Assembly (NCBI GenBank): GCA_027315205.1
Contig: DAHUYM010000004.1
Location: 1-40,803, forward strand
Length of the DNA stretch: 40,803 bases
Direction: 5' to 3'
DNA from: Leptospirillum sp.
GTDB taxonomy: Bacteria; Nitrospirota; Leptospirillia; Leptospirillales; Leptospirillaceae
Positions 8,555 through 28,963 of the stretch are shown here, in pieces. The position numbers were made by a program, and so were the translations under genes. Below the pieces are notes generated by a model. That model saw nothing but the letters and a program-made list of their open reading frames with translations, had not been told where the DNA came from and searched no databases. The first letter of the stretch is position 1; every line of letters begins with the position of its first letter.

Positions 8555-9977
8555 AACCCGATCCTGTTCCATCGAAGCCGTTCTCCAGCCACAAGCGAGG
8601 GACGGTCTCCCATTTCGAGCGTACACTCGGGCCTATGCCCAATGGCGACCTGACGCCAGCGGACCCCCAAGTGATCCTTGATTCCCTTGACGAAGGGGTT
8701 CTCGCCATCGGCCTGGACAAGCGGGTTCTGTACATGAACCGTGCCGCCCGCGAGTTTCTGAATATCCGGGACAGCGACGGGGGTGGTCGCATGGAATGCC
8801 ACAAGGCGATGAATTCCTCAGCGTGCCAGACCTGTTGCGTCCTGGAAAAGACCCTCGAAACCGGCGAGCCGTTCCGGAATTACGAGGTGACGGTGACCGA
8901 TGCGAGCGGGCGCAAACGGACATTCCGGCTCAATACCGCGCTCTTGAGGGACGCCTCGGGAACCGTGTTCGGGGGGGTCGAGGTGTTCCATGACGTCACC
9001 CAGATCGTGGCGTTGAAGGAAGAGCTGAAGGGTCGGTATTCCTTCGGGCACATCATCGGCCGGAGCGAAAGGATGCAGGAACTTTTCGATCTTCTTCCGG
9101 TGATAGCCCAAAGCAAATCCACCGTCCTGATCGAGGGGGAAAGCGGCACCGGAAAGGAACTCGTCGCGCATGCCCTCCATGAAAACAGTCCCCGGATCGA
9201 GGGTCCGTTCGTCTCTTTGAACTGCGCGGTTCTCTCGGAAGGCGTCCTCGAGTCGGAACTGTTCGGACACGTGAGGGGGGCCTTCACCGGTGCCGTCCAA
9301 AGCCGTCCCGGGCGCTTCGAACTCGCTTCGGGGGGCACGCTCTTTTTAGACGAGATCGGCGAAATCTCCCCGTCGATGCAGGTGAAGCTCCTCAGGGTCC
9401 TTCAGGAAGAGGAGTTCGAAAGGGTGGGCGGGACCAAGACGGTGAAAGTCGACGTCCGGGTCATTGCCGCGACGAACAGGAACCTGAAGCAGGCGATGGA
9501 GTCGGGCGAGTTCCGGAAGGATCTCTATTACCGACTTCGCGTGATTCCGATCACCCTCCCGCCGCTCCGCGAGCGTTCCGAAGACATTCCCCTCCTGATC
9601 CAGTCGTTTCTGGACCGCTACAATGCGGAACTCGGCAAAGACATCCAGGGGTTCACGTCGGAGGCGATGCAGGTTCTCCTGAATTACCACTATCCCGGGA
9701 ACGTCCGTGAACTCCAGAACGTCGTCGAGCACGCGGTTCTCCTGTCGAACGAGAGCCGGATCGACGTCCGGCATCTTCCGGGCGACCTCGTTCCGGTCCC
9801 GGGGAAAGCGACCTTCCTCGAGAAGGTGCTTTCGGAAAAAGAACCGCTTAAATACCTGGAGCGGGAGTTGATCCGGAAAACCATGGAGATTTCCGGTGGA
9901 AACGTATCCGAAGCCGCCAGGAAGCTTGCGATCGGCCGATCCACCCTGTGGCGGCGACTGAAAGAAATGAAGATGGC

Positions 9978-9981
<4 letters not shown>
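8551..9981 (+). CDS. PAS-domain sigma-54-dependent transcriptional activator with a Cys cluster
   Basis: The 476-residue protein has an N-terminal PAS domain (about 36-155), a sigma-54 AAA+ domain (about 168-400) and a C-terminal Fis-type helix-turn-helix (about 440-475). The AAA+ core shows Walker A GESGTGKE (196-203), the sigma-54 contact GAFTGA (243-248) and Walker B GGTLFLDEIG (261-270). There is no receiver domain, so it is not a classic two-component regulator. The PAS carries Cys83, Cys92, Cys95 and Cys96, a spacing suited to metal, Fe-S or thiol redox sensing. It overlaps the ferredoxin and trpE by 4 nt each. Target promoters are not evident here. Confidence 0.92.
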
Positions 9982-11470
<1,489 letters not shown>

Positions 11471-11483
<13 letters not shown>

Positions 11484-12067
11484 TGATCGATAATTACGAT
11501 TCTTTCACATACAACCTGGTCCAGTATTTCTGGGAACTGGGGAGCGAGATGGACGTGGCGAGGAACGACCGGATCACGATTCCGCAAATCCGGGCGGGAG
11601 GTTATGGTGGAATCGTCCTTTCCCCCGGACCGGGTGATCCGTCACAGTCCGGAATCTGCCTGGACGTCGTCCGCGAACTGTCCGGGGAAATTCCGATATT
11701 GGGCGTCTGCCTCGGCCATCAGGTCATTGGTGAAATCTTCGGCGGGAAAGTGATCAGGGCCGGTCGGTTGATGCACGGCAAAACCTCTCCGATCCGGCAT
11801 GTTCGCTCCGATCTTTTTGAAGGTGTCTCGGATCCGTTTGAAGCGACGCGTTATCATTCTCTTGTCGTGGAACCAGGCTCGATCCCGGATGTCCTGAAGG
11901 TGACGGCGTGGACGGACGAAGGTGAAATCATGGGGCTGGCCCACACGACACTCCCGGTATGGGGCGTCCAGTTCCATCCGGAATCGATCCTGACATTCGA
12001 GGGAAAGAAGATCCTGGACAATTACCTTCGCCTGGCGGAAAGACATCCGGTGGTACGGAGATCATGA
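11471..12067 (+). CDS. trpG: Anthranilate synthase component II, glutamine amidotransferase (TrpG)
   Basis: The 198-residue class I glutamine amidotransferase supplies ammonia to TrpE. Signature features are the N-terminal MIDNYDSFTYNLVQY, the SPGPGDP loop, the nucleophile Cys in GVCLGHQ, and the His/Glu of QFHPES near the C-terminus. ATG 11471 lies inside the end of trpE, and the stop overlaps trpD by 4 nt. TrpG and PabA are often shared between tryptophan and folate synthesis; its place in the trp run favours TrpG, but a dual role is possible. Confidence 0.93.
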
Positions 12068-13092
12068 TTTCGGAAAAACCTTTGCCGAAGATCCTTAGTG
12101 GAATATCCCTATCCCGCGAAGAGGCGCGCCAGTGGCTGAACGATGTCCTCGAGGGAAAGATCCCGGATTGCGAGACAGGAGCCGTTCTGTCCGCGTTGGC
12201 CATGAAGGGCGAGTCGAGCTCTGAACTTTCCGGTATCCTGGACAGCCTCCGGGAGCATATCGTCCGGTTCCCGCTTCCGGAGGAATACCTGCCTTCTGTG
12301 ATCGACACGTGCGGCACGGGAGGGGACGGGTCCGGAAGCTTCAACGTTTCGACGACCGTCGCTTTCATCCTTGCCGGCGGGTCGATCCCGGTGGTCAAGC
12401 ACGGGAACCGGGCCATTTCGAGCCGGTCGGGAAGCGCGGATGTTTTGGAAGCCCTCGGCATTCGGATCGACGTCTCCCCCGAACGGTCCCTGTCTCATCT
12501 GGAGCAGCTCGGGATCACCTTTTTATGGGCTCCCATCTATCATCCCGCCCTCAAGGTTCTTGCGCCGGTCCGAAAAGCGCTCGGGATCCGGACGGTCATC
12601 AACCTGGTCGCCCCGCTCGCCAATCCGGCCCTTCTGAAACGGCAGATCCTGGGCGTTTCCTCGGCGGATCTCGTTCCGGTCCTGGCCGACGTTCTCGAAA
12701 AAGAGGGTGCCAGTGCTTGTTGTGTGGTCCACGGCGACGGCCTCGACGAGGCCACGCTTTCCGGTCCGACCCACGTCTGCCGGATGCGGGGAGGGGTGCG
12801 TACGGAAGAGGTTTTCTACCCCGGGGACTTCGGGTTGACAGCTTCTCCGAAGAGTTCGGTCGCAGGGGGGGACGCCGCCCGGAATGCCGCCATCGTTAGG
12901 GAGGTTCTCTCGGGAAAACCCGGGCCGTTTCTGGATTATGCACTGGCAAATGCCGCCCTTGGGTTATGGGTCGCGGAACGTGTTTCGGATCTTCGGGAGG
13001 GAGTGGCCTTCGCCCGGGAAACGATCCGGTCCAAAAAACCAATGGAGATTCTGGATAAATGGATTCGACGGTCGCAGGAAACCCACTCCTAG
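12064..13092 (+). CDS. trpD: Anthranilate phosphoribosyltransferase (TrpD)
   Basis: The 342-residue protein transfers phosphoribose from PRPP to anthranilate. The PRPP-binding glycine-rich loop CGTGGDGSGSFNVST and the KHGNR motif are present, along with the family segment LNLVAPLANPA-like (INLVAPLANPA here). ATG 12064 overlaps the trpG stop. The 3' end overlaps trpC by 34 nt, which supports coupled translation. Length is typical for bacterial TrpD as a separate chain. Confidence 0.94.
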   Translation: MISEKPLPKILSGISLSREEARQWLNDVLEGKIPDCETGAVLSALAMKGESSSELSGILDSLREHIVRFPLPEEYLPSVIDTCGTGGDGSGSFNVSTTVAFILAGGSIPVVKHGNRAISSRSGSADVLEALGIRIDVSPERSLSHLEQLGITFLWAPIYHPALKVLAPVRKALGIRTVINLVAPLANPALLKRQILGVSSADLVPVLADVLEKEGASACCVVHGDGLDEATLSGPTHVCRMRGGVRTEEVFYPGDFGLTASPKSSVAGGDAARNAAIVREVLSGKPGPFLDYALANAALGLWVAERVSDLREGVAFARETIRSKKPMEILDKWIRRSQETHS

Positions 13093-13883
13093 AATCGATT
13101 GTCTCGGCCAAGGTCCGGGAGGTCGAACGGAGAAAGATCGATCGTCCGATCTCTGACCTGGAGCGGGAGATCCCCAGGATGTCGTCTCCATTCCCTCTGG
13201 AGAGGGAATGGAGAAAGACCCGCGGGACGGGCGTGAAGGTGATTGCGGAGCTCAAGAAAAAATCCCCTTCCAGGGGCATCCTTCGCGATCCTTACGAGCC
13301 GGACGCGATCGGAATGTCCTATGTAAGGGCGGGTGCGAACGGGATCTCGATTTTGACCGACTTTCCCTTTTTCGGGGGACATCTCGAACACCTCAGTGCC
13401 TTGAGGAACGCTCTCGGGACGGAGTGCGGAATTCCTCTTCTGCGAAAGGATTTCCTGATCGACCCCTATCAGGTCTGGGAAAGCCGCCGGGCCGGTGCCG
13501 ACATTGTGCTTCTCATCGTCCGGATTCTAGACGATCCCCGCCTGAAGGAGATGATCGCCCTGGCCGGTTCCCTGGGTCTCTCCGCCCTCGTGGAGGTTCA
13601 TTCCGAACGGGAACTGGAGCGCGCCTTGAGTGTCGGAGCCACTTTGGTCGGGGTCAACCATCGGGATCTAGACAGTCTTGCCATGGACTTTACCCTTTCC
13701 GAACGATTGACGCCGTTGATTCCGGATGCGGTCCTCAAGATTGCCGAAAGTGGTCTTAAAACGCCCCGGGATCGCAAGCGCATGGAGAATCTGGGTTACG
13801 ACGCCGTTCTCGTCGGAGAGTCTTTCCTGGCGGAGCCGGAGCCTGGAAGGGCGCTGGAAAGGTTCCTCGAACATGTGGATTAA
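13059..13883 (+). CDS. trpC: Indole-3-glycerol phosphate synthase (TrpC)
   Basis: The 274-residue TIM-barrel enzyme closes the ring of carboxyphenylamino-deoxyribulose phosphate to indole-3-glycerol phosphate. Family motifs include ELKKKSPSRG, LLRKDFLIDPYQV, the VGVNHRDLDS strand (GxNxRxL type) and IAESG. The start lies inside the end of trpD, and the stop overlaps trpF by 11 nt. It is a stand-alone TrpC, not fused to TrpF as in enteric bacteria. Confidence 0.94.
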   Translation: MDSTVAGNPLLESIVSAKVREVERRKIDRPISDLEREIPRMSSPFPLEREWRKTRGTGVKVIAELKKKSPSRGILRDPYEPDAIGMSYVRAGANGISILTDFPFFGGHLEHLSALRNALGTECGIPLLRKDFLIDPYQVWESRRAGADIVLLIVRILDDPRLKEMIALAGSLGLSALVEVHSERELERALSVGATLVGVNHRDLDSLAMDFTLSERLTPLIPDAVLKIAESGLKTPRDRKRMENLGYDAVLVGESFLAEPEPGRALERFLEHVD

Positions 13884-14526
13884 AATCTGCGGGATCGCGA
13901 CTGTCGAGGATGCCCGGATGGTCGCAAGGTGCAAACCCGATGCGATCGGTCTCGTGTTCTATCCGCGTTCTTCCCGGTTCGTCGACGTCGACCGCGCAAG
14001 AGTTATCGCCGACGCGCTCCCCGCCGAGATCCGAAAAGTGGGGGTGTTCGTGGATCCAGACTGGGACGGGATCAGATCTTTGGCCCGGACCGTCCCTCTG
14101 GACCTGATCCAATGGCATGGTGGAGACCTGTCTCCCGAAGGCCTGGAGCGCTTGGACGCGATGGGTGTCCCATGGATCGATGTCCGGAAAATCCGTCCGG
14201 GGGAACCCCTTCCAAAAGACATTTCCCCGCGCGGCGGCGCTTCCTATCTTCTGGTAGAAGGCGCATCGGATCGCTCTCCGGGGGGAAACCGGGTTCAATG
14301 GGACCGGTCCGTCATGCGGGGTGTGCGATGTCCTTCCCCGCTTATTCTTTCGGGGGGACTGGATCCCGAAAATGTGCTCGATGCTTTGAGAGCGGCTTGT
14401 CCGTTTGGTGTCGATGTTTCCTCCGGGGTCGAATCGCGCCCCGGGAAAAAAGATCCGGGCCTCCTCGAGGCCTTTTTTTCGGAGGTGAGACGTTATGGGG
14501 CAACCTTTCAGGATGCGGTCCTCTAA
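13873..14526 (+). CDS. trpF: Phosphoribosylanthranilate isomerase (TrpF)
   Basis: The 217-residue enzyme isomerises phosphoribosylanthranilate. The N-terminal KICGI carries the catalytic Cys, followed by [10 protein letters not shown] and VGVFVD. The C-terminal part has [10 protein letters not shown] and [15 protein letters not shown], all typical of TrpF. ATG 13873 lies inside the last codons of trpC. The coding sequence ends 32 nt into trpB. The codons near 14458-14479 also encode a terminator-like hairpin with a T run, listed separately. Confidence 0.93.
14458..14479 (+). terminator. Terminator-like hairpin inside the end of trpF
   Basis: GGCCTC at 14458-14463 pairs with GAGGCC at 14467-14472 across a 3-base loop, and seven T residues follow directly (14473-14479). 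This is the form of an intrinsic terminator, but it lies within the trpF reading frame and ends just before the trpB ribosome binding site (GGAGGTGA, 14481-14488). Ribosomes translating trpF would normally prevent the hairpin from forming. It could cause partial termination when translation of trpF is poor. Confidence 0.5.
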
Positions 14527-15730
14527 GATCCGGCCGGCATCCCTCCCGGATCGCCTGGGGTATTTCGGGGCGTTCGGGGGTCGTTTTGTTTCGGAAACCC
14601 TGATGGCGGCTCTCTACGAGCTTGAGCAGGCGTTCCGGGAGGCATGGAAAGACCCGGAATTCCATCGAGAAATGAAGGGGGTCTACAGGGATTTCGTCGG
14701 TCGCCCGAGCCCCCTGTATTTCGCCGAAGCCTTGACCCGAAAGATCGGAGGGGCCCGGATCTATCTGAAACGCGAAGACATGCTCCACACCGGGGCCCAC
14801 AAGATCAACAATACCGTCGGTCAGGCCCTCCTGGCCCTTCGCATGAAGAAAAAGCGGCTCATCGCCGAAACAGGGGCCGGCCAGCACGGTGTGGCGACCG
14901 CGACCGTCGCGGCCCGGTACGGGTTCGATTGCGACATCTACATGGGGACGGAGGATGTCCGTAGACAGTCCCTGAACGTGTTCCGGATGAACCTTCTGGG
15001 AGCCAGGGTCCGTCCCGTTGAAGGCGGCACGAAAACCCTCAAGGACGCCATCAGCGAAGCCCTCAGGGACTGGTCCCAATCGGTGCTTTCAACCCACTAT
15101 GTTCTGGGAACGGCATTCGGGCCCCATCCGTTCCCCCTGATCGTCCGTTCCTTCCAGTCCGTCATCGGCCGGGAGGCCCGGAAGCAGATCCTCGGGAAGG
15201 AAGGCCGTCTTCCCGACGCCCTGGTGGCATGCGTCGGAGGCGGAAGCAATTCGATCGGGCTTTTCTATCCCTTCCTGAAAGACCTTGGATGCGTACTTTA
15301 CGGGGTCGAAGCAGGGGGAAGGTCGTTCCGCCCAGGGGAGCACGCGGCACGTTTCAAGACGGGGAAAGTCGGGGTGCTTCAGGGATCGAAAACCTTCGTC
15401 CTTCAGGATCCGGACGGCCAGATCGAAGGAACCCATTCCGTTTCCGCCGGGCTCGATTATTCGGCGGTGGGTCCGGAACTCTCCTATTACCGCGAGAGCG
15501 GAAGGATCTCCTTCACGTCCGTGACGGACGACGAGGCCCTGAACGGCTTCGAAACCCTCTCCCGTACGGAAGGGATCATCCCGGCCCTCGAAAGTTCCCA
15601 CGCCATCGCGTGGGGCGTAAGGTTGGCCCGTGAACTGGGCCCGGACAGAATCGTTCTCATCAATCTCTCCGGCCGTGGCGACAAGGATGTCATGGAAGTC
15701 GCCCGCATCAAGGGGGTGTCCCTGACATGA
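14495..15730 (+). CDS. trpB: Tryptophan synthase beta chain (TrpB)
   Basis: The 411-residue PLP enzyme joins indole and serine to make tryptophan. The PLP lysine lies in HTGAHKINN, the substrate carboxylate loop in ETGAGQHG, and the phosphate loop in GGGSNS. It opens with the usual [16 protein letters not shown] region. The ribosome binding site GGAGGTGA at 14481-14488 is strong, unusual within this overlapping run, and may give trpB independent re-initiation. It overlaps trpF by 32 nt and trpA by 4 nt. Confidence 0.96.
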
Positions 15731-16551
15731 AAAAAGTTCCGTCTCGGTCGAACGGTGACCCGGAGAAACGGGTGATTCCCTATCTGATGGCGGGGGATCC
15801 GGACCTCAAAACGACCGCGGCTCTTCTCCGTTCCGCCAAAAAAGCGGGTGCCTGGGCCATCGAACTTGGAATCCCCTTCAGCGATCCGATGGCGGACGGT
15901 CCGGTAATCCAGAAGGCTTCGTCCCGGGCCATGTCCAAAGACACGTCTCTCAAGTCGATCCTCGGGTGGCTCGAAACGATTCCGGCCGGGGACCGACCTC
16001 CGGTGTACCTGATGACGTATTTCAACCTCTTCCTTTCGATGGGACTTGAAACGTTTGTCCGGAAAGCCGTTGCCGCCGGGGGAATCCGCGGTGCCGTCAT
16101 CCCGGATCTTTCCTTCGAGGATTCATCGGAGGTCCGTAGGGTTTTTCGCAAGGCGGGACTGTCCCTCGTTCCGTTCATCGCTCCGACCACCTCCCAGGAT
16201 CGGATGAGGAAGATTGTTGCAACTGGCGAGGATTTTATTTACTTTGTATCTTTGTTGGGAACCACGGGCAAGGAATTGTCGGATCCACGCGACGTGGGTC
16301 GGCATGTTTCCCTCATCAAGTCGATGACACAGGTCCCGGTCTGCGTCGGGTTCGGTATCCAGTCGCCGGAAACGGTACGGGAGATACTTGACGTGGCAGA
16401 CGGAGTGATTATCGGGTCCCGCCTGGTTCGGGAAGAGAACGACCCGGTCCGATGGGGAAAGCTCCTCTCCTCGTTCATACAAGCGGCACGTTCCGTTCGG
16501 TTTTCCGGAAAGCGGTCGACAGAACGGTCGGTTCGGGAACGTTCTCATTGA
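15727..16551 (+). CDS. trpA: Tryptophan synthase alpha chain (TrpA)
   Basis: The 274-residue TIM-barrel subunit cleaves indole-3-glycerol phosphate and channels indole to TrpB. The catalytic Glu is in ELGIPFSDP and the catalytic Asp in MADGP, both at their usual places. Later motifs include VSLLGTTG (usually VSxxGVTG) and CVGFGI. The start overlaps trpB by 4 nt. The C-terminus carries a basic, Ser/Arg-rich extension of about 20 residues. It is followed 21 nt later by accD, an order seen in many bacteria. Confidence 0.95.
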
Positions 16552-21976: not shown

Positions 21977-22888
21977 TTACTTCTGGTAGCGGTCTCCCCA
22001 TTTCAGCTTGTCGCGAAGCACTTCGAAGTAGTTCCGTTCGGGATAAACGATCAGATGCGTGACGGATGAGGATTTTGTTATTTCCACGAGATCTCCCGCG
22101 GTCAGGAGGAAATCTACCTGCCCATCGAATGTGGATGTGACGGATTCGCCTTTCTTGATCAGGATCTCGATCCGGACATGTCCCGGAAGGACCAATGGGC
22201 GATGCGTCAGGGTGTGGGGGCAGATGGGGGTCATGATGATCCCCTCCATTTCCGGATAGACGATCGGACCGCCGGCGGACAGATTGTAGGCGGTCGATCC
22301 TGTCGGGGTCGAAAAGATGACCCCGTCGCCCTTCAAGGCTGTCACGAACAGGGCGTCCATATATATGTCGAACTCGATCAGCCGGACTTTCGATCCTTGA
22401 TTGATGACGACATCGTTCAATACATGGGATTCCGTGACTGCGCGTCCATGGCGTATGACTCGCGTCTTCAGCATCATCCGGGCATCGGTTTGGTAGTTGC
22501 CCCTTAGGGTATTCTCGAGAACCTCGAAGAGTTCCGACGCCTGGACCTCCGTAAGGAATCCGAGGCTTCCGAGGTTCACGCCAAGGATCGGGATCCCGGG
22601 CGATTTGGTTTCCGTTGGCGCCTGATGTTCCGCCAGAGCCCTTGCGGCCGAGAGGAGCGTTCCGTCCCCTCCGAGAACGAGCAGAAGGTCCGCCCGGTCG
22701 GCGATCTCCGATTTTTCCCATGTTTTTTCGCCCGGCACCGTACGTGCGCCTTCGTTGTCGAGGAAATAGGCAATACCCCTTTCCCTTAGCCAAGGGAGGA
22801 GTTTGTGAAGAATCGAACGGATTTCCTCGGACCGATGGGGCTTTGTCAGGATTCCGATTCTTTGGATCGACTGTCGCAATGGTTGCAT
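21977..22888 (-). CDS. nadK: NAD kinase (NadK)
   Basis: The 303-residue protein phosphorylates NAD to NADP. It carries the GGDGT motif at residues 73-77, the NLGSLGFL segment, the nucleotide-site Asn-Asp at 158-159 (Asn-Glu in most homologues) and GSTAYNLSAGGPI at 197-209. AGGAAAGAG precedes the ATG at 22888. A weak minus-strand TATAGT (plus positions 22995-23000) could be its -10 element. It probably forms a two-gene unit with the M14-type gene. Confidence 0.94.
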   Translation of the reverse strand: MQPLRQSIQRIGILTKPHRSEEIRSILHKLLPWLRERGIAYFLDNEGARTVPGEKTWEKSEIADRADLLLVLGGDGTLLSAARALAEHQAPTETKSPGIPILGVNLGSLGFLTEVQASELFEVLENTLRGNYQTDARMMLKTRVIRHGRAVTESHVLNDVVINQGSKVRLIEFDIYMDALFVTALKGDGVIFSTPTGSTAYNLSAGGPIVYPEMEGIIMTPICPHTLTHRPLVLPGHVRIEILIKKGESVTSTFDGQVDFLLTAGDLVEITKSSSVTHLIVYPERNYFEVLRDKLKWGDRYQK

Positions 22889-23252: not shown

Positions 23253-23340
23253 GAATACCCCTACTCTAAACCGGCTCAAACCGCTTATGGCGTTTCATAG
23301 AACCGAGCCTTCCGAGGCGAGGAAGGTGGAGGATGGCATA

Positions 23341-25182
23341 ATGAAGGGGAAATACAAGTTACACATACCGGAATATGAATATTATGCGGATCAGGTGGCC
23401 TGTCGAAAGGGCTGTCCGGTCGGTACCGATGCAGGTGGATATGTCCAGGCCATCCGGAGCGGCGAATATGAAAAGGCCTATGCCATCGCCCGGGGCCCCA
23501 ATCCTTTTGCTTCAATCTGCGGTTGGGTGTGCAACGCTCCCTGCGAAGCCGCCTGCACCCGTGGCAATATCGACTCCCCGGTCACCATCCGGGCGCTGAA
23601 GCGATTTGTGACTGAGAAGTTCGGGGTGGAGGCCGTCAGCGATCCGGCCGTTACCCTGCGGTATTCCACGGCTCCGGGGGTTCCCTACGGCCGGGCTACC
23701 GGCGAAAAGGTCGCGATTATCGGAGGCGGTCCTGCAGGGCTTACCGCCGCTCACGATCTTGCAAGGCTTGGATACCGTACGACCCTGTTCGAGTCGAACA
23801 AGAGGCTTGGCGGGCTCTTCTACCTCGTTCCGGAATACCGCCTTCCGCGTCCCCTCATCAAGGCCGAAGTCGACGCTATCGCAAGCATGGGCCTCGACAT
23901 CCGTCTGAATACCACTGTCGGGAAGGACGTTTCCTTCAAGGAGATCCAGGACTCGTTCAAGGCTATCGTGATCGCCGTAGGGGCCTGGGGTAGCCGTCCC
24001 ATTCCTTTCGAGGGCAAGGATCTCGAAAATGTCTATTCCGCTCTTCCTTTCCTTCAGTCCGTCTATCTCGATCACAGTCCCGCAGCCGTTGGCCGTAATG
24101 TCGCCGTGGTAGGAGCGGGAAACGTGGCCATGGACGTTTGCCGGACCGCAGTCAGGCTCCCGGGGGTGCAGAAAGTCACGGTCATCGCCTTGGAAGATTG
24201 GGATGAGATGCCGGCCGACGAAGCGGAAATTGAAGATGCCGTCGCCGAGGGAGTGGAGTTCCTGACACGAAAGGGAACCCGAAAAATCAACGGGTCCGGG
24301 AAGGTAGACGGGCTGGAGCTCGTTCGGGTCGTATCCGTTTTTGACGACCAGGGCCGTTTCGCCCCGGTTTTTGACGAAGCCGACAGGACGGTGGTTCCGT
24401 TCGATTCGGTGATCCTAGCGATCGGGCAAACGATCGATTCCTCGTTTGTTCCCCCGGAACATGATTCGATCGTTGGCCGCAACGGCGTCATCAGGGCCAA
24501 TATCCATAGCATGGATACCGGAGTTCCCGGAGTATTCGCGGCAGGCGACGTTGTGACGGGGCCCCGGATTTTTATCGATGCAATCGCGGGCGGACAGGTT
24601 GCAGCCGCTTCAGTTCACCAGTATCTCTCCCAAGGAGCGGTGGATTCAAAGGTTTATGGGATTTCGACGCCGGTCGAACACCGTTCGAATCCAACCCCCA
24701 TCTGGCCCGTTGATGTCAATGTCGACGGATATTATTCCATTTCCCGGAATAACCCCCCTCTCCTTACCCCCAGTTTCCGCCGAACGAACTTCGAGCTTGC
24801 TGAACTCTCCTTCGGCGAAGACGAAGCCCGCGCCCAGGCGGCGAGATGTCTGACCTGCCATGTCAATCCGATTTTCGTCGGGGAAAAATGCATCATGTGC
24901 GGCGGGTGCGTGGACGTTTGCCCGGAGTATGCCCTCAAGATGATTCCCCTGACCGATGCGGATCTTGACCAAGACAAGACGGTAAAGGTCATTGAAAACT
25001 TTCTGGGCGTTGAGATTGACCAGCCGAACGACCATGAGGTAGTTCAGCAGTTAAGCCTTTCAACGGCCATGATTTGGGACGGAGCACGTTGCATCCGTTG
25101 CGAATTGTGTGCAAAGAGATGTCCGACGGGTGCCATTTCGATGGAATTCTTGGAAGTTAAACAGGAGGTCACCTTGTCATGA
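23341..25182 (+). CDS. GltD-like FAD/NAD(P) oxidoreductase with C-terminal ferredoxin domain, bc-complex associated
   Basis: The 613-residue protein resembles the small subunit of glutamate synthase. An N-terminal Fe-S domain has CRKGCPVG at 21-28 and [16 protein letters not shown] at about 60-75. An FAD motif GGGPAGL follows at about 126, an NAD(P) motif GAGNVAMD at about 258, and a closing GDVVTGP FAD motif. The C-terminus adds ferredoxin motifs [12 protein letters not shown] and [15 protein letters not shown] 23341 has GGAGGA 7 nt upstream. No gltB is adjacent; instead Rieske and cytochrome b genes follow with a 4-nt overlap. It probably passes electrons between the bc complex or quinone pool and NAD(P) or ferredoxin. 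Confidence 0.9.
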
Positions 25183-25799
25183 GTACGGCTCTCACCGGTA
25201 CCGAAAATCAGGATCCTTCAAAAGAAACCGCCAGTCCGGCGGATCTTGAAAGACGAAAGTTCATGGTGTCTGCCGGATGGGGTGTCGTGGGTCTGACCCT
25301 CGCCGGTTCGACTTATGCCGCATATAAATTCATGTTCCCCCCGATTCTCTACGAACCTCCGACGGTCTTCAAGATCGGTCACGTGACCGATTACGGCCTC
25401 GGTGTTGACGAAAGATGGAAGTTGAAGGGTCGGTTCTGGGTTGTCCGGAATATGCGCGGTATCTATAACATGATTTCCATCTGCCGCCACCTTGGGTGCA
25501 CGCCGAATTGGTTCCCCGACCAGAAACGATTCCGTTGCCCTTGCCACGGGTCGATTTATGACGTTCACGGAAACGTGCGCGGTGGGCCAGCACCAAGAAC
25601 CTTGTGGAGAGGCCAGATCACGAAAGACCCCGTTGACGGCCAGCTTGTCGTCAATACAGTTATACGGCTCGATCCCAATCCGGCCCAAACCCCGCAGGGA
25701 CTCTGGGTCAAGGAGAAGATCAAGGAAATCCAGCCATACTGGATCACGCATACCTCTCCTCCCGGGGCATCTTGTGCTGCGAACCGTCTGTTGTGCTGA
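25179..25799 (+). CDS. Rieske [2Fe-2S] protein of a bc-type complex
   Basis: The 206-residue protein has a basic N-terminus (RRK at 25-27), a membrane anchor at about 30-52, and a Rieske domain. The cluster ligands are Cys102 and His104 in CRHLGC, and Cys120 and His123 in CPCHGS; Cys107 and Cys122 would form the usual disulfide. A GGPAPR loop follows. The start overlaps the flavoprotein gene as ATGA. The C-terminal 30 residues, ending in two Cys, go beyond the standard domain. It oxidises quinol at the Qo site in the forward direction. Confidence 0.93.
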
Positions 25800-25809
25800 G
25801 GGCGTTTTG

Positions 25810-25846
25810 CCGGCGGAGCCTAATCCAGGGCTCCGCCGGTTTTGTT
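25810..25846 (+). terminator. Strong hairpin with T-rich tail between Rieske and cytochrome b genes
   Basis: CCGGCGGAGCC (25810-25820) pairs perfectly over 11 bp with GGCTCCGCCGG (25829-25839), with an 8-base loop and then TTTTGTT. It has the form of an intrinsic terminator but lies 66 bp before the cytochrome b start, inside what should be one operon. It may act as a partial terminator or as an RNA processing or stability element that sets different levels for the two parts of the operon. Confidence 0.65.
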
Positions 25847-25912
25847 CTCGTTCCCCGATTTTTCAGGATATTGGCTTTTTTAGCCGGAAACGACTATTTG
25901 AAAGGATAGCGA

Positions 25913-26674
25913 ATGCTTGAGAATGTGAAGGAGAAAATTGTCAAGTCCCAAGTGTTTCGTTCCATCTTTCGGCATGGGTTTCCGGACAACGATCTCAACC
26001 GGGCCTATGTCGTTTTCAGCAACGTATTCCTCCACATTCATCCCGTAAAGGTGCGGAGAAGCGCTCTGCGAATGCGCTACACGTTCTGCCTCGGGGGAAT
26101 CACCCTCTTTCTTTTCATCATGCTCACGGTCACCGGAATCTGGCTGATGTTCTACTATACCCCCTATACCGGTCTTGCCTACAGCAATATCCAAGACATC
26201 CAGTTCGTCATTTTCGGGGGAAACCTGATGCGGGACCTTCATCGGTTCGCGGCGCACGGGATGGTTCTTTTCGTATGGCTCCACATGACCCGCGTTTTTC
26301 TTACGGGGGCATACAAGGCTCCTCGTGAGTTCAATTGGGTTGTCGGGGTGGTCTTGTTGGTCAATACGCTCATCTTGAGCTGGACGGGATACCTCCTTCC
26401 CTGGGATCAGCTGGCCTACTGGGCGGTGACGGTGGGAACCAAGATGGCTTCCTACACTCCATTTATCGGTCAGAACGGACCCTGGGGGGCCCAGTTGGGA
26501 TTCCTCCCCACCAACGACATCATGTTCATGCTGATCGGTGGAACAGTGGTGGGCCAGAACGCCCTCATCCGTTTTTATGTGCTTCATTGTGTGGTCCTCC
26601 CGCTCGTCGTGACCGTGTTCCTCGCGGTGCACTTCTGGCGGATCCGCAAGGATGGCTTTTCCGGGCCTCTATAA
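25913..26674 (+). CDS. petB: Cytochrome b N-terminal half (b6-like)
   Basis: The 253-residue protein has four core membrane helices and the two bis-His heme sites: His110/His124 in the second helix and His225/His240 in the fourth. The 15-residue step in the second pair is that of b6-type proteins. GYLLPWDQ at 159-166 is the conserved Qo-side motif. It lacks the C-terminal helices, which the next gene supplies. AAAGGA precedes the ATG. It forms the quinol-oxidising membrane core together with Rieske. Confidence 0.92.
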
Positions 26675-26733
26675 AATTTGTGGTTTCGGTCTTATCGGGT
26701 ATGACCATTCCATTGCAAAGAGGGGATGCCTGA

Positions 26734-27564
26734 ATGGAGAATAAAGTGACTCGCGAAATATTTCCGCGTGATTCTCGAAAGAGTTACGGGCTTGTCGAGC
26801 TCATGAAGGGAACGGTTCCCATTGTGCGCAAGGAGCCTGAAGATACGGTTTATGTTTGGCCGAACCTGATCCTGATTGAAGTCATCTGTGCGCTTTTGGT
26901 CACAGCGGGACTGATTCTTCTCGTACAGTTCGTCCATGCCCCGCTCCGGTCCCTGGCCGACCCTTCCACGACACCGAACCCGATGCGGGCGCCCTGGTAT
27001 TTTCTGGGACTTCAGGAACTTCTCGTTTATTTCGATCCGTGGTATGCCGGGGTTGCTCTCCCGGGAATGATCATCGTGGGGCTGATGGTATTTCCCTATG
27101 TCGATACCAATCCAAAGGGTACCGGTTACTTCACCCTCACGGAACGGCCATTCGCCATTTTCAATTATTCTTTCGGTTTCGCCCTCTGGTGGGTCACGAT
27201 TGTCATCGGGACCTATCTACGGGGACTCGATTGGCAATGGTACTGGCCGTGGAGCAATCACCTCGAGCATATGAACCCCGCCCTCGTGACACTGGTCCCG
27301 CTCCATATCGTTTTCGTCAATTTCTTGCATGTCTCCAAGGATATCGCTAAAGGACTGTGCGATATCCTGTTCTTCGCGTATTTTGCGATCGGGATGGCCA
27401 TCCCCTATTTCTTCATGCGAAAATTCTACGATTCGCTGGGGGGGGCGCGTTATTTTGTCTTCATGCTTTTTTTCCTCTCGATGATGGGAGTCGGTTTCAA
27501 AATCATTCTGAGGCTCCTGTTCAATATCAAATACATTGTGGTCACTCCCTGGATCAATGTCTGA
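26734..27564 (+). CDS. petD: Cytochrome b C-terminal half (subunit IV-like)
   Basis: The 276-residue protein has about six hydrophobic helices. The Qo-site PEWY position reads APWY (residues 86-89) in the context APWYFLGLQELL, a form known from several non-proteobacterial bc complexes. It is longer than the 160-residue b6f subunit IV, with extra helices at the C-terminal end. It follows the b6-like gene by 59 nt. I infer that it pairs with that subunit to complete cytochrome b. Confidence 0.88.
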   Translation: MENKVTREIFPRDSRKSYGLVELMKGTVPIVRKEPEDTVYVWPNLILIEVICALLVTAGLILLVQFVHAPLRSLADPSTTPNPMRAPWYFLGLQELLVYFDPWYAGVALPGMIIVGLMVFPYVDTNPKGTGYFTLTERPFAIFNYSFGFALWWVTIVIGTYLRGLDWQWYWPWSNHLEHMNPALVTLVPLHIVFVNFLHVSKDIAKGLCDILFFAYFAIGMAIPYFFMRKFYDSLGGARYFVFMLFFLSMMGVGFKIILRLLFNIKYIVVTPWINV

Positions 27565-27707
27565 GTGAAGCTTGGGAACGAGTGGAGTAGGGGGCGCCGA
27601 ATCGTACGCCCTTTGCTGCCACGGGTTTCTTGAGAGGGAATGTTTGTGTCGTTGATGACGATGACCGGAACTGGTTCACAGTCAGTTTCATAGGTTAAGG
27701 AGAGGCA

Positions 27708-27926
27708 ATGAGTCCATTCCACAATCTCTTGAATGAGCCCTGGGTGGAGCAATATTTTGGGTACCCTTACCGTATCGGGATATTCCTGACCCTCTTGGTT
27801 GGGACCGCATTCTTCTATTATCTGATTATCTGGTTTCAGAAATGGCAGGAACGCTCGTTCTATCCGGAAGGTCATCCGCTTCGGAAAGATCCTGATGCGG
27901 TGAACGAAAGGGGCCGGCGCGCATGA
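27708..27926 (+). CDS. Small single-span membrane protein in the bc operon
   Basis: The 72-residue product has one membrane span at about residues 22-43 followed by a basic, polar tail. AAGGAG (27697-27702) precedes ATG 27708 at a good distance, and the stop overlaps the tetraheme cytochrome gene by 4 nt, so it is surely translated with it. I recognise no family; an accessory subunit of the bc complex is the simplest reading. The 143-bp gap before it holds no other gene that I can see. Confidence 0.65.
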   Translation: MSPFHNLLNEPWVEQYFGYPYRIGIFLTLLVGTAFFYYLIIWFQKWQERSFYPEGHPLRKDPDAVNERGRRA

Positions 27927-28888
27927 AAACGAAAGTCTATGTCCTGTTTTTCCTTTCTACCCTTTTCCTTGCAGGAACCTTCCTGATCGAGATGTACAAG
28001 GATACGCATCCCGAATGGATGAAGTATCAGCGCCAGTATTACCAATTGTTGGCGCAGAAGACGAACAATCCGGCTCTCGCGAATTCGCCGCTGATAGTCG
28101 TCCAGACCTGGAACAGCATCCTGAATCGGGCCGACCGGTGCCAGACCTGCCATATGGGGATCGATGTCCCGATTTTCAAGGATGCTCCCCAACCGTTCAC
28201 GACCCATCCGGACTTGACGGGGTACATGAGCAAGCACCCCTTTGGGAAGTTTGGCTGCACGGTCTGCCATGACGGAAACGGTTTGGCGACGACGGTTGAC
28301 CATGCCCACGGGTTCAACGTGACGCTCGATTACCAGCCGAAGATCGGACCTTTTGCAGAAGCGACCTGTACCAAGTGCCACACTGACCTTTACAATGACG
28401 GGGTCAATCCTCCCATGACCCCGTACCTTAACCTGGCAAAAAAGACCATCAAGCAGAAGGGTTGCGGGTCCTGTCACACGATGGTCCAGTTCAACTTGCA
28501 CGGGGTGCTGGCGCCGGACCTTTCCGGATTCGGGTCCCGGACCGAACTGGGTTTCTACAATGTGCATGCCTTTATGTATGTGAACGGGGTCCATTCTGAA
28601 CGGGAATGGGAGTGGGAGCATTTCAAGAACCCCCGACGGATTTCCCCCGGGATGCCCGCATTCAAGGTGCCCCCCACGATCATGCCCAATTTCCATCTGA
28701 CGGATGAACAGACCACGGCGTTGACGACGTGGGTGTTGGGCCTTGTGGATCCTGCCGTCATCACCATTCCCCAGAAGTACCTTCCGGTCGAGATGGCGCA
28801 TGGTCGGCCCGTTCCGATTCCCGTGACCAAGGGAGACATCGGCGTGCTGCCTGAAGCGGCCTTTAAAAAGGTTTCGATGAATCAGTAG
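27923..28888 (+). CDS. Tetraheme cytochrome c of the bc complex
   Basis: The 321-residue protein has an N-terminal anchor or uncleaved signal (about 4-22) and four CxxCH heme sites: residues 73-77 (CQTCH), 112-116 (CTVCH), 149-153 (CTKCH) and 181-185 (CGSCH). The last is followed by a class I cytochrome-like domain with Met residues (PGMPAF) as possible ligand. It occupies the place of cytochrome c1 or f in the operon and is the likely electron exit or entry point of the complex on the periplasmic side. Confidence 0.92.
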   Translation: MKTKVYVLFFLSTLFLAGTFLIEMYKDTHPEWMKYQRQYYQLLAQKTNNPALANSPLIVVQTWNSILNRADRCQTCHMGIDVPIFKDAPQPFTTHPDLTGYMSKHPFGKFGCTVCHDGNGLATTVDHAHGFNVTLDYQPKIGPFAEATCTKCHTDLYNDGVNPPMTPYLNLAKKTIKQKGCGSCHTMVQFNLHGVLAPDLSGFGSRTELGFYNVHAFMYVNGVHSEREWEWEHFKNPRRISPGMPAFKVPPTIMPNFHLTDEQTTALTTWVLGLVDPAVITIPQKYLPVEMAHGRPVPIPVTKGDIGVLPEAAFKKVSMNQ

Positions 28889-28933: not shown

Positions 28934-28963
28934 AAAAGCCCCGGGAAACCGGGGCTTTTTTTT
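28934..28963 (+). terminator. Rho-independent terminator closing the bc operon
   Basis: AAAAGCCCCGG (28934-28944) pairs with CCGGGGCTTTT (28949-28959) around a GAAA tetraloop, and the T run continues to 28963. The 11-bp stem and eight T residues make it a strong terminator. Confidence 0.9.

Follow-up and report, generated by a model that had tools for sequence, protein, structure and literature searches.

The closest described systems are the NAD(P)-linked Rieske/cytochrome b complexes, which in the literature we searched are described for anammox bacteria. Complexes of this kind in Kuenenia co-migrate experimentally, AlphaFold3 models of them place the reductase on the cytoplasmic side, and the generation of NAD(P)H by them has the standing of a proposal (PMC12954380). 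A limited literature search returned no description of an NAD-linked Rieske/b complex in the group of the present host. Here we consider an operon in a 40,803-nucleotide stretch of Leptospirillum sp. DNA (the window), whose membership among the anammox-type NAD(P)-linked Rieske/b complexes appears well supported by alignments and motifs. It departs from the described complexes in its predicted NAD(H) site, in having a tetraheme cytochrome as partner and in its host, which is probably an acidophile.

The initial annotation had placed a flavoprotein, a Rieske protein, a cytochrome b and a tetraheme cytochrome in one operon at 23341-28888. Both the coordinates and the domains were confirmed, as was the overlap of the flavoprotein and Rieske genes, which amounts to 4 nt (ATGA). 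Two features were absent from it: cytochrome b is split in the b6/subunit-IV style, and a small one-helix subunit is encoded next to the tetraheme gene.

23341..25182, + strand: GltD-like FAD/NAD oxidoreductase subunit, 613 aa, with Fer4_20, Pyr_redox_2 and C-terminal 4Fe-4S motifs and without a membrane helix
25179..25799, + strand: Rieske 2Fe-2S protein, 206 aa, ligand motifs C102-x-H104 and C120-x-C122-H123
25810..25839, + strand: strong hairpin with 11-nt arms, then TTTTGTTCT, between the Rieske and cytochrome b genes
25913..26674, + strand: cytochrome b6-like subunit, 253 aa, PF00033
26734..27564, + strand: subunit-IV-like protein, 276 aa, PF00032, with a C-terminal membrane extension
27708..27926, + strand: one-helix small subunit, 72 aa, overlapping the tetraheme gene
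27923..28888, + strand: membrane-anchored tetraheme cytochrome c, 321 aa, CxxCH at residues 73, 112, 149 and 181
28934..28963, + strand: terminator-like AAAAGCCCCGG-GAAA-CCGGGGCTTTT and T run at the operon end, found by eye and unlisted by the consensus scan

Position 23287 is also possible as a start of the flavoprotein reading frame, while relatives begin at the position of 23341. The hairpin downstream of the Rieske gene is possibly a partial terminator or a processing site; the transcript could be split there, which counts against reading the genes as a single operon. A promoter scan was uninformative. Compared with a relative, the 72-aa reading frame differs at 2, 3 and 32 first, second and third codon positions, that is, almost entirely at the third, and across the same family it measures 71-73 aa, one relative being read from an upstream start. 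Small one-helix reading frames also occur at the same place in another family of the phylum (f9, 38-40 aa) and at a different place in a Kuenenia operon (51 aa), both compared by their helix and not as homologues.

Among the matches listed, the order flavoprotein-Rieske-cytochrome b is kept in all 16 same-family loci, in other families of the host phylum (four f9 loci, three f3 loci, one f6 locus) and also in Acidobacteria, UBA7659 and Abyssobacteria. One of the three f3 loci carries two in-frame stops in its flavoprotein match, and one relative (G002) has two contigs (L054 and L055) that both carry the operon in full. The 4-nt overlap recurs in 13 of the 16 same-family loci and in 4/4 f9 loci; in the remaining three same-family loci the ORF caller chose an upstream Rieske start. 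As a set, the genes are clustered in the host family, in other families of its phylum, in Acidobacteriota, in Hydrogenedentota and in anammox bacteria, in at least three gene orders, the anammox loci keeping the set together but ordering it otherwise.

For a direct comparison, the Kuenenia genome was located through a Planctomycetota search with the Rieske fragment of PDB 9rk3 (100% match), and both of its NAD(P)-linked operons were read. The residues named in PMC12954380 (Kuste4571 His43 and Arg247; Kustd1481 His62, Arg266 and Lys267; Kuste4570 Arg511; Kustd1483 Arg550) sit where that paper puts them, which confirms the identification. The suggested kinship with anammox bacteria is borne out, since Rieske protein, cytochrome b, subunit IV and flavoprotein all align near full length with both operons, at identities of 59/53% for cytochrome b, 42/46% for subunit IV, 37/37% for the GltD-like protein and 39/32% for the Rieske protein. 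In the window, as in Kuenenia, one cluster holds a Rieske protein, a b6-like cytochrome b, subunit IV, a GltD-like reductase and a multiheme cytochrome c. Kustd1480-1485 shares with the window the Rieske protein, the b6-like cytochrome b with its heme c_n cysteine, the APWY motif of subunit IV, the GltD-like reductase, a one-helix reading frame, the putative heme b His/Arg/Lys positions, Arg550 (window Arg593) and a multiheme c sequence that matches the window tetraheme cytochrome. It differs in having an octaheme instead of a tetraheme cytochrome c, Arg-Arg instead of Leu-Glu at the coenzyme site, and the order Rieske-b-small-GltD-subunit IV-c. Kuste4569-4574 has the same core subunits, all aligned to the window, but a hexaheme cytochrome c plus an HAO-like octaheme protein, an Arg-Arg site and the order Rieske-GltD-b-subunit IV-c6-c8; moreover, whereas flavoprotein Arg593 of the window aligns with Kustd1483 Arg550, Kuste4570 Arg511 maps elsewhere. 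The tetraheme profile matched octaheme Kustd1485 at 4.5e-65 and hexaheme Kuste4573 more weakly (3e-16).

The closest PDB sequence to the Rieske protein is the Kuenenia Rieske 9rk3, and its CHGS-x-Y motif provides a Ser and a Tyr that would be expected to raise the redox potential. With cytochrome b6f the locus shares a split cytochrome b, the heme c_n cysteine (Cys59) and the histidine spacings H-x13-H (His110/124) and H-x14-H (His225/240), but it has a tetraheme cytochrome c and a GltD-like subunit and no cytochrome f subunit. Subunit IV carries APWY where that of cytochrome b6f has PEWY, and its Glu49 lies at the presumed position of the proposed heme c_n ligand. It aligns with the five-helix Kuenenia version including the C-terminal extension, although the hydropathy scan shows overlapping segments; the subunit IV of cytochrome b6f has three helices (PMC12954380). 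In a cytochrome b tree the window protein clusters with the NAD-linked clade and stands apart from the b6 of plants and cyanobacteria, and the lineage nearest to anammox bacteria was not resolved in that tree.

In Kuenenia, a cytochrome b histidine has been proposed as a ligand of an additional heme b, which would lie on the path to NAD(P) (PMC12954380). The window has His41, Arg245 and Lys246 at these putative positions, aligned with His62, Arg266 and Lys267 of Kustd1481. Whether His41 marks coupling to NAD can be judged from complexes without a flavoprotein gene nearby. A cytochrome b could be scored in 19 of the 20 planctomycete loci fetched. Eighteen of these 19 have no full-length same-strand flavoprotein gene within 6 kb, the remaining one (L216) having a flavoprotein gene of 680 aa; the wider cytochrome b clade does not have the flavoprotein throughout. 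The set used comprises 18 complexes with no same-strand GltD match within 6 kb (L185 on the minus strand, L198-L204 and L206-L215) and L205, 19 in total, absence being scored locally by that strand and distance. The minus-strand complex of L185 shares its locus with a flavoprotein gene on the opposite strand. L205 (G270:C8:141000-154000) has a 155-aa GltD-like reading frame, which is a fragment, a pseudogene or unrelated; since the full subunit has roughly 570-680 aa, it was counted as lacking a full-length gene. His41 is kept in 18/19 complexes of this set (17/18 without L205), the exception being L215, where position 41 is Gln, position 43 is Asn and the pair 245/246 is Arg-Arg. Arg245 and Lys246 are both kept in 16/19; besides L215, there is no aligned residue at these positions in L202 and L209. 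As a marker of NAD coupling His41 was therefore rejected. The three residues are general among complexes without a nearby flavoprotein gene, and so appear to mark the clade and not NAD coupling, which calls for caution, as the histidine argued for an extra heme on the NAD(P) route is clade-general. The heme c_n cysteine is itself variable in the clade, Cys59 being Gly in L211, L213 and L214, and L063, L066 and L072-L074 likewise have a cytochrome b without it.

Sixteen conserved cysteines of the flavoprotein (C21, C25, C60, C64, C68, C72, C503, C506, C517, C520, C523, C527, C584, C587, C590 and C594) correspond to the complete Fe-S cysteine set of the anammox reductases and would be enough for up to four Fe-S clusters. 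They are kept across the aligned Rieske/b-linked homologues, apart from a single position that is Leu in Kustd1483 and in its G408 relative. An AlphaFold2 model from a 10-row alignment reached a mean pLDDT of 59.9 and was set aside. As a general rule in Rossmann folds, the residues at the end of the strand near the coenzyme 2'-phosphate predict NAD or NADP. At this predicted position the window flavoprotein has Leu284-Glu285, and its coenzyme is thus predicted to be NAD(H), not NADP. Leu-Glu is also found in the other aligned Rieske/b-linked homologues outside anammox bacteria and in some GltD-like proteins without adjoining Rieske/b genes (loci L067-L070). The Arg-Arg pair typical of NADP, which is seen in Kuenenia, in NfnA-type proteins, in a NuoF-GltD fusion of the host genome and in the homologue of locus L065 (no Rieske/b genes were found beside it), is not what the window flavoprotein has. 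In the anammox literature searched, Arg-Arg versus Leu-Glu is a difference between variants and not a defining trait. Low-potential ferredoxin had been named as an alternative electron destination; nothing was found that points there, and the coenzyme site looks to be of the NAD type.

It had also been stated that no glutamate synthase large subunit is present. This is correct for the window and does not extend to the genome, where contig C41 has a 1565-aa GltB-like gene. The GltD-like protein might then be the small subunit of this GltB, its place in the operon being incidental. The genome yielded no canonical GltD gene, and PDB scores of the GltB fail to separate NADPH from ferredoxin types, both of which would suit such a pairing. 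We nevertheless regard it as very improbable: the C41 GltB is unlinked, with no GltD homologue beside it; adjacency to the Rieske gene is kept across phyla and gene orders; and the flavoprotein has, in addition, a two-cluster ferredoxin domain at its C terminus. In the PDB it matches NfnA (9n5u) and 9bov best, with GltD proteins scoring lower, and among NCBIfam models it is nearer PRK12771 than GltD. Flavoproteins of the NfnABC and NfnA type resemble it in combining FAD/NAD(P) domains with Fe-S domains, but they are soluble bifurcating enzymes without attachment to a Rieske/b complex. Besides this flavoprotein, the one GltD homologue that turned up in the host genome is a 1048-aa fusion of NuoF-type and GltD-like parts (L010:6822-9968, G000:C41), possibly a soluble bifurcating enzyme.

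We consider it fairly probable that the products of the operon form a single membrane complex, one of the anammox NAD(P)-linked Rieske/b kind, which serves reverse electron transport for carbon fixation. From the gene content, homology, motif conservation and clustering observed, we infer its physical assembly, its cofactors, NAD over NADP, its role and its direction. Cytochrome b and the subunit-IV-like protein would provide the binding sites for quinone and the b hemes, and probably that for heme c_n. The Rieske protein and the tetraheme cytochrome c would form a high-potential branch on the periplasmic side, and the GltD-like subunit, probably cytoplasmic, a low-potential branch that comprises as many as four Fe-S clusters as well as FAD and ends in NAD(H). 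These branches would meet at the quinol-oxidation site, where QH2 exchanges one electron with the Rieske protein and tetraheme c and the other with the b hemes and NAD(H). The complex would work beside a separate bc1-like complex and proton-pumping complex I, its most likely role being reverse electron transport for carbon fixation. The host genome does have a second b/c complex, of bc1-like type (L012:7603-9989, G000:C40), with a Rieske protein and a cytochrome b that carries a fused cytochrome c domain and falls outside the NAD-linked clade; it also has complex I genes including NuoF and NuoG, and two POR-type genes.

The direction of electron flow is another matter. The initial annotation had electrons driven by proton motive force from the tetraheme cytochrome through quinone to NAD(P), which is not supported. 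In a Q-cycle, quinol oxidised at Qp feeds one electron to the low-potential branch, and the other goes to the Rieske protein and the c cytochrome. It follows from this chemistry that the tetraheme cytochrome must accept electrons whenever NAD+ is reduced. The energetics were estimated as E_c + E_NAD - 2E_Q(p) + dpsi with assumed values, that for methyl-plastoquinone being the +58 mV measured in Nitrospira (PMC12324825). Under the assumed potentials, and with a periplasm at pH 1.5, NAD+ reduction comes out uphill, by an estimated 262-532 mV for methyl-plastoquinone and 6-276 mV for menaquinone; with menaquinone and acceptors of at least +700 mV, it becomes slightly downhill at pH 2.5. An acid periplasm is estimated to make NAD+ reduction uphill at nearly all quinone and cytochrome potentials tried. 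With a very acid periplasm the estimate favours the reaction of NADH, reduced cytochrome c and Q to QH2; for neutrophilic relatives with low-potential quinones it favours NAD+ reduction. Because the quinone, the cytochrome potentials and the lifestyle are assumed, the direction is something that we infer. Overall, composition and kinship are well supported, and any direction weakly.

These estimates tell against forward bifurcation of the Kuenenia type, with one quinol electron passing to tetraheme c and an oxidase and the other lifted to NAD(P)+. The core architecture is common to the Kuenenia complexes, where the same is proposed, and the Rieske Ser and Tyr would suit a high potential. At pH 1.5-2.5, however, potentials like those of methyl-plastoquinone or ubiquinone leave it uphill with all acceptors tried, up to +770 mV; it takes menaquinone and an acceptor of very high potential to come near break-even or pass it, and the genome gave no MqnA/D match and no MenD above the cut-off. 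We regard it as rather unlikely in this host. Tentatively, and as a possibility only, the complex may run the other way, NADH and Fe(II)-derived cytochrome c each giving one electron to the reduction of quinone at Qp. NADH would provide added drive for uphill quinone reduction, and complex I would remake it at the expense of proton motive force. Such confurcation is downhill in most acid conditions tried, whereas the reverse bc1 reaction alone is marginal, the Leu-Glu site suggests NAD(H), and complex I genes are in the genome; yet no precedent was found in the literature searched, the proton cost per quinol exceeds that of reverse bc1, and the case rests on assumed potentials. With considerable doubt, we suggest that in these acidophiles the complex could be a confurcating quinone reductase, which would give reverse electron transport a second gear alongside the bc1-like complex. 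It is unlikely that the flavoprotein instead feeds quinone at the cytoplasmic side (heme c_n/Qn), as a non-pumping NADH:quinone reductase. Heme c_n Cys59 and Glu49 are kept, but NADH would be wasted in an autotroph, and for Kuenenia, where quinone access near heme c_n is noted, reduction at the Qn side is argued to be unlikely (PMC12954380).

The reading of the operon as one complex for reverse electron transport makes it a candidate part in moving electrons against an energy gradient. Since the same core, with an NAD-type site, occurs in what is probably an acidophilic iron oxidiser, and also in other phyla, the flavoprotein would seem to be an add-on module of wide distribution, and the acidophile offers a second setting, beside anammox bacteria, in which the coupling of quinone, cytochrome c and NAD(H) could be studied and tested. 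The host genome further has a membrane cluster (L189:6900-13566, G000:C11) with 49-kDa/30-kDa-like and antiporter-like subunits, which resembles energy-converting hydrogenase-related complexes. Within the window, an NAD kinase gene (21977-22888, - strand) lies divergent from the operon. It adjoins the operon here and in 7/7 same-family loci scanned and in none of the other loci scanned, and because it is confined to the same family among these loci, this neighbourhood is weak evidence. A tryptophan biosynthesis gene cluster lies upstream of the operon, at 9948-16548.
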